Source of the DNA: Ectothiorhodospiraceae bacterium WFHF3C12
GTDB lineage: Bacteria; Pseudomonadota; Gammaproteobacteria; Nitrococcales; Nitrococcaceae
DNA length: 38,588 nt
Direction of reading: 5' to 3'
Assembly: GCA_013519935.1 (NCBI GenBank)
Contig: JACDUA010000041.1
Location: 1-38,588, forward strand
Part shown: piece after piece, positions 25,386-27,901 of the stretch
How the letters are laid out: the number at the start of each line of letters is the position of its first letter
Numbering within the stretch: position 1 is the first letter of the stretch
Position numbers and translations under genes: made by a program
Notes under the pieces: model-generated
Told to the model about the DNA's origin: nothing
Databases searched by the model: none
Seen by the model: the letters and a program-made list of their open reading frames with translations, nothing else

Positions 25386-25394
25386 CGCTGCTCT

Positions 25395-25509
25395 CCCCCT
25401 CTCTCCCAGCCCCTCTCCCACGAGGGGAGAGGGGAGTTCAGTGCCCCGAGGAAAGGGGCGTGCCGCCGTCAACCCCTCTCCCTCGATGGGAGAGGGGTTG
25501 GGGAGAGGG
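25395..25509. repeat. Left inverted hairpin pair of the DUF559 unit
   Basis: Two hairpins with identical 10-bp stems CCCCTCTCCC / GGGAGAGGGG: 25410-25434 (loop ACGAG) and 25473-25497 (loop TCGAT), 38 bp apart. Outer flanks are inverted to each other: CTCTCTCCCAG before the first and TTGGGGAGAGGG after the second. The spacer contains a small CCCC/GGGG stem. Confidence 0.85.
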
Positions 25510-25574
25510 TGAAGTAGAACAAACGCTCCCAGGAAGGGAGCTGACGAAAGCTCGACCGGTCATGGAGGACCACA

Positions 25575-25940
25575 ATGGACCAGAAGCGCTTCGCGCGCAC
25601 GCTGCGCCGGAACATGACGGACGCCGAGAGGCGACTGTGGCGCCATCTACGGGCCTACCGTCTCAACGGCCGGAAATTCCGCCGCCAGCAGCCCATCGGC
25701 CCTTACGTGGTTGACTTCGTCCACTTCAGCGCCATGGTCATCGTCGAATGCGACGGCGGCCAGCACAATACGGGCACTGCGGATAAAGCGCGTGACCGTT
25801 GGCTACAGCGGCAGGGCTTTACAGTCCTGCGCTACTGGAATCACCAGATACTGAACCAAACGGACCTTGTGTTAGAGGACATTCTGAAGAAATTACCCCC
25901 TCTCCCCCGGCCCCTCTCCCACGTGGGGAGAGGGGAGTGA
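25575..25940 (+). CDS. DUF559 (Vsr-like, PD-(D/E)XK) nuclease-fold protein
   Basis: A 121-residue protein of the DUF559 family, which is related to very-short-patch-repair endonucleases. Seen: N-terminal ARTLRRNMTDAERRLWRHLR, then KFRRQQPIGPYVVDF with the first active-site Asp, then IVECDGGQHN (E-x-D-G-x-x-H, with Cys where most have Leu or Val), and GFTVLRYWN near the end. The domain is complete by about residue 106; the last 15 residues (LPPLPRPLSHVGRGE) are the translated edge of the right-hand repeat. GGAGG precedes ATG 25575. It sits between acnD and prpF, same strand, bracketed by hairpin pairs. Nuclease activity and target are not known. Confidence 0.85.
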   Translation: MDQKRFARTLRRNMTDAERRLWRHLRAYRLNGRKFRRQQPIGPYVVDFVHFSAMVIVECDGGQHNTGTADKARDRWLQRQGFTVLRYWNHQILNQTDLVLEDILKKLPPLPRPLSHVGRGE

Positions 25941-26013
25941 CCGGCACCCCGCAGCCGACGGTACCGACATTAAACCCCTCTCCCCTCGCGGGAGAGGGGC
26001 TGGGGAGAGGGGG
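25896..26013. repeat. Right inverted hairpin pair of the DUF559 unit
   Basis: Hairpins 25911-25935 (loop ACGTG) and 25975-25999 (loop CTCGC) with the same 10-bp CCCCTCTCCC / GGGAGAGGGG stems, 39 bp apart. Flanks CCCCCTCTCCCCCGG before and CTGGGGAGAGGGGG after mirror each other. The DUF559 stop (25938-25940) is just past the first hairpin. The pair ends 26 bp before prpF. Confidence 0.85.
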
Positions 26014-26039
26014 ACGCAACAATCCGGAGCAACTAACCC

Positions 26040-27319: not shown

Positions 27320-27901
27320 ATGTCCAATTCCCGGCGCGCCGCTGTTCCGGGCGGCACGTTCTTCTTTACGGTCACGTTGGCGGACCGGACATCTTCGTTG
27401 CTCACCGACCAAGTTGACGTCCTGCGTCACTGCTATGCCGAAGTCCAGCGGGAAAGGCCATTCCAAACCGTTGCCGTTTGTCTCCTCCCCGACCACTTGC
27501 ACGCCGTTTGGCGACTGCCACCACCCAAAGACGCCGACTTCTCGACGCGCTGGCAGCGCATCAAAGCCCGCTTTTCGCGGCATCTCCCACCCCGCCGCGA
27601 GCGAAGCCCCAGCAAGGTCCGGCATCGGGAAAAAGGCATCTGGCAGCGCCGGTTCTGGGAGCACAAGATTCGCGACGAGGATGACCTGCGGCGGTACGTG
27701 GACTATATCCACTTCAACCCGGTCAAGCATGGCCTCGTCGAGCGGGTAGCGGATTGGCCGTATTCCAGCTTTCACCGTTACGTGAGTGAAGGGAAGTTGC
27801 CGTTGGACTGGGGCGGTCCGGCCGCCAGTCAGTTGGTTGGCGACGTCGGGGAGTGTCCCGGTGGGCTATCGCCCACCCTACGTTGGGACCATGGCCCGTA
27901 G
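27320..27901 (+). CDS. rayT: REP-associated tyrosine transposase (RAYT, IS200-like Y1/HUH)
   Basis: A 193-codon member of the RAYT family, single-copy relatives of IS200/IS605 TnpA that cut at REP hairpins. Seen: N-terminal FFFTVTLADR, HUH motif LLPDHLHAVWRLP, then IWQRRFWEHKIRDEDDLRRY and catalytic-Tyr region YVDYIHFNPVKHGLV, then WPYSSFHRYV. The last 17 or so residues are read from the downstream REP pair and the stop TAG is part of a REP (GTAGGG). Codon choice (TTG, TTT, CAA) looks less GC-biased than in the flanking prp genes, suggesting acquisition. TGAGGA precedes ATG 27320. It is in operon direction between prpF and prpD. Confidence 0.9.
   Translation: MSNSRRAAVPGGTFFFTVTLADRTSSLLTDQVDVLRHCYAEVQRERPFQTVAVCLLPDHLHAVWRLPPPKDADFSTRWQRIKARFSRHLPPRRERSPSKVRHREKGIWQRRFWEHKIRDEDDLRRYVDYIHFNPVKHGLVERVADWPYSSFHRYVSEGKLPLDWGGPAASQLVGDVGECPGGLSPTLRWDHGP

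Follow-up and report, generated by a model that had tools for sequence, protein, structure and literature searches.

Two kinds of described system are closest to the locus that we analyzed. In the REPIN/RAYT systems, as far as the available parts of two papers describe them (PMC3116915, PMC3733652), the gene for the enzyme is flanked by a linked palindrome, there are many inverted doublets of this palindrome, and gene and palindrome diversify together. The enzyme is a single-copy Y1 (HUH) tyrosine transposase and the repeats have a conserved GTAG. One group of REPs, the "CGTC" REPs, is said in the available part of the second paper to be without a dedicated transposase (PMC3733652).

The other system is the BoxC repeat, also known as PIT or TM, which was already known in E. 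coli in the 1990s and is linked to genome instability (PMC4666352, available in part). Holder et al. 2015 (PMC4666352) gave its motif as CCCTCNCCC-N3-6-GGGNGAGGG-N3-GGGNGAGGG, reported that the motif forms an intrastrand triplex in vitro, and counted 3610 copies in 262 proteobacterial genomes. Of these, 23 are in E. coli K-12, where there are five inverted pairs. That study, as far as available, detected no connection between TM repeats and mobile elements or any class of flanking genes, and the terms "endonuclease" and "DUF" do not occur in its text. Among open-access papers, judged by titles, the starts of abstracts, and available passages, we found no pairing of DUF559 with any repeat family.

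We analyzed a stretch of 38,588 nucleotides (the window) from Ectothiorhodospiraceae bacterium WFHF3C12. The gap between acnD and prpF (25386-26039) is completely occupied by TM repeats and a DUF559 gene, as follows:

25386..26039, no strand: the whole insertion-like unit, from acnD to prpF, 654 bp (from gap comparison)
25395..25437, + strand: TM unit 1, an imperfect C-box and the hairpin at 25410-25434 (from the hairpin search and shuffles)
25471..25511, - strand: TM unit 2, the hairpin at 25473-25497 and a G-box (from its fit to the published triplex pattern, second loop 4 nt)
25575..25940, + strand: gene for a DUF559 (PF04480) nuclease of the Vsr-fold PD-(D/E)XK type, 121 amino acids (from the Pfam profile, alignment, and structure model)
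25896..25938, + strand: TM unit 3, a C-box and the hairpin at 25911-25935, overlapping the 3' end of the DUF559 gene (from the triplex pattern as read on the - strand, second loop 5 nt)
25973..26013, - strand: TM unit 4, the hairpin at 25975-25999 and a G-box (from the triplex pattern, with a second loop of 4 nt)

Judging from their sequence, the hairpins in the window are the known BoxC/PIT/TM intrastrand-triplex repeat, and they form inverted pairs, as do those described by Holder et al. Three of the four units fit the published pattern if the second loop is allowed 4-5 nt, where the published motif has 3, and the box of the remaining unit is imperfect. All four hairpins have the same 10-bp stem in perfect copies (CCCCTCTCCC-N5-GGGAGAGGGG at 25410, 25473, 25911, and 25975), two on each side of the gene, and shuffled window sequence gave zero such hairpins. 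Each unit is polar, with a hairpin and, on one side, a third copy of the arm (the box), which is not a feature of REPINs. As single strands, both pairs fold much better than shuffled sequences do (z = -6.8 and -7.9).

A preliminary description of the locus, made from the letters of the window, had the number and arrangement of the hairpins right, and the spacers within the pairs measure 38 and 39 nt, as it had stated. It also reported inverted pairs with mirrored outer flanks: both pairs are indeed inverted, with C-rich and G-rich boxes facing outward, but the first box is imperfect. The C-terminus of the protein is read from the repeat, as described, but the translated part is the last 14 residues (PPLPRPLSHVGRGE) rather than 15. 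Finally, the locus had been described as a RAYT/REPIN-like unit built on a different protein. The layout agrees with this, but the enzyme is unrelated to RAYTs and the repeat itself was already known as BoxC/TM.

The genome that the window comes from has 38 copies of the repeat (allowing up to 2 mismatches and including the four copies in the window) versus one DUF559 match. Script-found units in this genome form six pairs within 200 bp. The second unit has its box outward in all six pairs and the first unit does so in four of the six; the first unit's box is imperfect in two. REPIN-like inverted pairs of palindromes thus occur at several sites in this genome, and they also occur in E. coli; whether copies form inverted pairs was a check that the preliminary description had proposed. 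We also note that a single 50-kb contig (C91, examined as L180-L182) holds 13 of the 38 copies.

prpF was found in 17 of 140 genomes, and we compared 11 loci besides the window's (no acnD was found at two of these). The acnD-prpF gap is 654 bp in the window and 973 bp in Arhodomonas, and it is 0-159 bp in eight of the nine other relatives in which both genes were found, which answers the question of the preliminary description whether orthologous gaps lack the unit. In the ninth relative, the gap is 932 bp. Among the eight relatives with short gaps, one (G060) has a DUF559 gene elsewhere and two (G084 and G034) have weak partial DUF559 matches. In Arhodomonas aquaeolei, an array of TM-bearing units lies upstream of the DUF559 gene at this same site (L017, 2500-2950). 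In two relatives without the unit (L198 and L202), the gap carries other repeats, namely CACAGAGG-type repeats and CCTCCCC-type hairpins, and it may therefore be a recurrent landing site.

The open reading frame at 25575-25940 matches PF04480 with E = 1.6e-40 (137.8 bits, as compared to a gathering score of 20.6), and DUF559 and MTES_1575 are its only Pfam matches. YcjD from E. coli, which had already been placed near Vsr according to the available part of PMC1189080, scores 167 bits against the same model. The window protein was not among the matches to the Vsr profile (TIGR00632), and YcjD reached 13.9 bits against a cut-off of 97.85. The relationship to Vsr that the preliminary description had asserted is visible in the structure model (mean pLDDT of 87, with low confidence for about the last 11 residues), which in a comparison by VIA matches the homing endonuclease I-Bth0305I (3r3p, Z = 10.8), Vsr (1cw0, Z = 8.8), and, with a higher score, NGO0050 (3hrl, Z = 14.5). 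The match to Vsr extends over 96 residues with an rmsd of 2.7, that is, a Vsr-like fold. I-Bth0305I and Vsr share the catalytic fold with the window protein, but I-Bth0305I is a mobile intron protein and Vsr is a T:G mismatch enzyme. We know of no tie between either of them and palindromic repeats. In an alignment of DUF559 proteins, E18, W22, F35, Q38, D47, F48, E58, D60, G61, H64, D70, R73, and R86 are invariant. Because these 13 residues are identical in 90 of 90 sequences, the nuclease active site is conserved and the enzyme is probably active. We rejected the idea that this is a defense-system gene: PADLOC gave part-domain matches only, with E of at least 0.004, to models that are 1078 and 1911 positions long. 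In a separate comparison, matches with E > 0.2 were set aside as chance-level.

Hairpins are found next to most DUF559 genes. We picked loci blind to the repeats, by taking the best DUF559 match per genome and then the 29 top-scoring other genomes of each of our two panels, in which 46 and 90 genomes matched (58 loci). With a stricter rule for hairpins, 46 of all 58 loci have a hairpin and 26 have hairpins on both sides. Dropping three partial matches (L102-L104) and keeping near-complete domains left 55 loci, some of which are cut by contig ends. At 52 of these 55, there is a pyrimidine-armed hairpin (a perfect stem of at least 8 bp with a 5' arm that is at least 85% pyrimidine) within 300 bp of the gene, and at 29 of 55 there are hairpins on both sides, as compared to 21 of 658 control windows that were over 700 bp away. 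The three loci with no such hairpin within 300 bp are L090, L091, and L141. When 32 of 51 loci that are similar to the window were scored by the same rule, 30 had hairpins (23 on both sides) and two did not (L025 and L065). This confirms that the bracketing of DUF559 genes by palindromes is real and general.

The stems differ between DUF559 loci: we saw CCCTCTCCC, CCTCCCC, CCTTCTCCC, CCCCCTTT, ATCTCCCCC, and others. The similarity of the stems tracks the relatedness of the proteins (Mantel r = 0.28, n = 52; 1 of 5000 permutations was as high). Similarly, the stem label changes 25 times on the protein tree, versus 31.8 times after shuffling (0 of 200 shuffles were as low), on a tree that has few resolved branches and on which some individual labels, CCTTCTCCC among them, do not group together. 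In one genome (G138), the sole DUF559 gene has CCCCCTTT hairpins, and 13 copies of CCCCTCTCCC lie elsewhere. In Deinococcus, two plasmids have a DUF559 gene with hairpins on both sides. A bracketed DUF559 gene sits in a plasmid hpaB-hpaE region in two Deinococcus species (L212 and L216). At one of six plasmid loci from outside the Pseudomonadota (L215), our script found no hairpin of at least 7 bp near the DUF559 gene.

The two are also linked across genomes. Among 219 genomes of Pseudomonadota, the TM pattern is present in 52, DUF559 (at E of 1e-10 or better) in 70, and both in 40 (counts of 40/12/30/137; odds ratio 15, p = 1e-14). The 70 genomes with DUF559 contain 1460 copies of TM and the other 149 genomes contain 133, although some of these "DUF559-less" genomes may be false, as an E. 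coli control genome had no match to PF04480 even though MG1655 has ycjD. In a panel of 140 genomes from the class, and with a stricter pattern, the counts were 11/8/18/103 (odds ratio 7.9); the panels share genomes and these statistics ignore kinship. The preliminary description had proposed to test whether copy number tracks the DUF559 gene, and it does; the repeats are not equally common in genomes without DUF559 genes, and, as reported above for the 55 loci, the DUF559 genes of other genomes are flanked. Of the 52 genomes with TM, 12 have no DUF559 match at 1e-10 (for example, G209 has 41 copies and G312 has 22). Conversely, 30 genomes have DUF559 without the TM pattern, some of which carry different stems (G170 and G206, for example). 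Whereas RAYTs are single-copy, some genomes have several DUF559 genes (10 matches in G182, 9 in G297, and 8 in G226). A reversed control pattern was found once in one of the 219 genomes (G217) and at one place in one of the 140 (G150). The shuffles, the counts at loci versus controls, the fit to the triplex pattern, and the rarity of matches to the reversed pattern rule out chance hairpins in C-rich DNA.

In the window, a Y1_Tnp (RAYT/IS200-like) gene follows prpF (27320-27901, + strand; PF01797, E = 4.5e-6), with no adjoining TM repeat. If TM repeats were REP elements that are mobilized by Y1 (RAYT/IS200) transposases, then their link to DUF559 would be indirect. The window's genome does contain six Y1_Tnp genes, one of them 1.4 kb from the unit. 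However, only one of the six has a TM hairpin within 1.5 kb, and the repeats near it are those of the DUF559 gene; of the other five, one has a lone arm motif. Y1_Tnp is present in 122 of the 219 genomes and its association with TM has an odds ratio of 1.5 (33/19/89/78, p = 0.21), while the association of TM with DUF559 persists within both the genomes that have Y1_Tnp and those that do not. Also, the ends of the TM units lack the conserved GTAG of REPs: of 30 units in the window's genome, only 5 have GTAG or CTAC within 30 nt. Given the flanks of the Y1 genes in this genome and the association across the panel, we rejected Y1 transposases as the mobilizer of TM, and we consider this explanation highly improbable.

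In E. coli, the DUF559 gene is ycjD, which lies between sapF and fabI and is present in 3365 of 5426 genomes. In the strains examined, there is a TM repeat between ycjD and fabI; TM is downstream of ycjD only. Upstream of ycjD is a long inverted repeat (CACCTCATTCTGACAA...TTGTCAGAATGAGGTG) that is unrelated to TM (at about 1655-1705 of L108, and also in L105 and L106). The plasmid collection labels two chromosome-sized records, those of KE47 and H240 (L105 and L106), as plasmids. We sampled 60 E. coli records at even steps along a ranking of 5399, and dropped one record of 231 kb. The number of other TM places has a median of 20 in records with ycjD (12 to 29, n = 37) and of 6 in records without it (1 to 21, n = 22; p = 1e-8, with rows that are not phylogenetically independent). 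According to the available part of one paper (PMC12817139), ycjD is a marker of phylogroups A, B1, and C and of ST69 and ST182, and strains with the eef operon have it at this position; because ycjD marks particular phylogroups, its relationship to the number of TM repeats is partly one phylogenetic split. Two strains, ETEC1701 and 3908, lack ycjD yet have many TM repeats (21 and 17 places). From the phylogroups of strains 55989 and IHE3034, we presume that only 55989 has ycjD. If so, the copy numbers reported for them, 29 in 55989 and 1 in IHE3034 (Holder 2015, PMC4666352, available in part), would fit a link to ycjD.

These results also bear on whether DUF559 is a Vsr-like nuclease for mismatch repair or other housekeeping, with adjoining hairpins that act as terminators or insulators and incidental copies elsewhere. 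Strong hairpins can end transcription, which would suit this explanation. Furthermore, VsrA from Caulobacter, which has the same Pfam domain, is required for the SOS response when a methyltransferase is mutated; the available text proposes a role in mismatch repair that is tied to a cytosine methyltransferase, and it mentions no palindromes (PMC12907096). On the other hand, so many loci with hairpins on both sides of the gene (29 of 55), the many dispersed copies, and a TM number that tracks the DUF559 gene speak against a housekeeping nuclease, and Holder 2015 (PMC4666352, available in part) cites earlier work that detected neither promoter nor terminator activity. We consider a housekeeping role with incidental hairpins to be rather improbable.

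TM repeats vary in presence at defined sites in E. coli. A TM doublet is present or absent between hrpB and mrcB (117 bp versus 15 bp in Nissle) and between entC and fepB (191 bp versus 5 bp in EC18), and a single TM unit is present or absent between trpS and yhfZ (125 bp versus 16 bp in PBP5). At a further site, between alx and sstT, one strain has a collapsed doublet. No target-site duplication is evident at the three E. coli sites, whose junctions are degenerate, and each change may be a gain or a loss.

Two genes on plasmids of Synechocystis sp. B12, one for DUF1156 and one for a methyltransferase, are interrupted by TM-DUF559-TM cassettes. The DUF1156 gene is one coding sequence in Nostoc, uninterrupted by a cassette, and DUF1156 matches are also in two pieces in two Planktothrix records, Calothrix, and Geminocystis. 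The B12 gene has a further frame change upstream, and some of the hairpins in B12 are imperfect. In Picosynechococcus PCC 7002, the DUF1156 gene on plasmid pAQ6 has several in-frame repeats in the linker that holds the cassette in B12 (L215, 2671-3015). The methyltransferase gene of Pseudanabaena galeata has a bare in-frame TM doublet at the position of the cassette, and a second in-frame doublet elsewhere that is absent from Synechocystis. Because doublet and cassette occupy one site in the methyltransferase gene (the alleles seen being one of each), they look like the gene-less and gene-bearing forms of one element.

The main rival explanation reads the same site differently: the nuclease gene would be a homing-type parasite that enters TM doublets, or the space between their halves, with the doublets being spread by other means, so that the repeats would be its target and not its product. 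The cassette in Synechocystis at a site where a relative has a bare doublet speaks for this, and the closest functional match to the fold is a homing endonuclease. The 12 genomes with TM but no strong DUF559 match, and the presence of up to 10 DUF559 matches in one genome, also argue for it. Against it, 149 genomes without strong DUF559 have 133 TM copies as compared to 1460 in the 70 with it, TM copies are fewer in E. coli records that lack ycjD, the stems follow the protein tree, and the window's genome has one gene and 38 repeats. Overall, we think that the parasite explanation is unlikely, if less so than the other rivals.

The simplest account is a partnership like that of REPINs and RAYTs, but with a PD-(D/E)XK nuclease instead of a Y1 transposase. 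We think it fairly probable that DUF559 nucleases of the YcjD type are dedicated BoxC/TM enzymes, as RAYTs are for REPs, with binding, cutting, and cutting-driven spread as the parts that we infer. We observed linkage both locally and across genomes, co-clustering of stems and proteins, a dosage relationship in E. coli, presence or absence of doublets, and doublet and cassette at one site. Counting against this reading are the genomes that have TM or DUF559 without the other, the three loci without a hairpin, the mismatch of stems in G138, the multiple DUF559 matches of some genomes, the one-sided TM of ycjD, the absence of target duplications at junctions that are not clean, the TM-rich E. 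coli records without ycjD, the kinship among the genomes compared, and the mismatch-repair role proposed for VsrA. In the mechanism that we propose, the gene for a Vsr-fold nuclease lives between TM repeats and its product would recognize the TM fold, meaning the hairpin and perhaps a third purine strand. It would nick or cut there, most likely on single-stranded DNA. Repair of the break, or re-insertion, would then copy TM doublets to new sites, with doublets and TM-gene-TM cassettes as two forms of one element. The Vsr and homing-endonuclease families do not use covalent tyrosine chemistry, and therefore the spread would most likely proceed via cutting and repair.

More tentatively, we suggest a new class of bacterial element, in which a nuclease of the Vsr/homing type could disperse palindromes that form intrastrand triplexes, by cutting and repair copying without a transposase. 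This could underlie BoxC/TM across the Pseudomonadota and related stems in Deinococcota, Cyanobacteriota, Campylobacterota, and Nitrospirota, and ycjD of E. coli K-12 could be a working or recently working copy.

TM repeats have so far been without a known moving agent, and their pairing with DUF559 reaches well past the window, including to ycjD. As a candidate for the TM enzyme is encoded by E. coli K-12 itself, the origin and the instability of BoxC/TM are directly testable. If our proposal is true, then the pattern of a repeat with a dedicated enzyme that is known from REPINs and RAYTs would have arisen separately around an unrelated nuclease, and DUF559, a widespread domain of unknown function, would gain a role.
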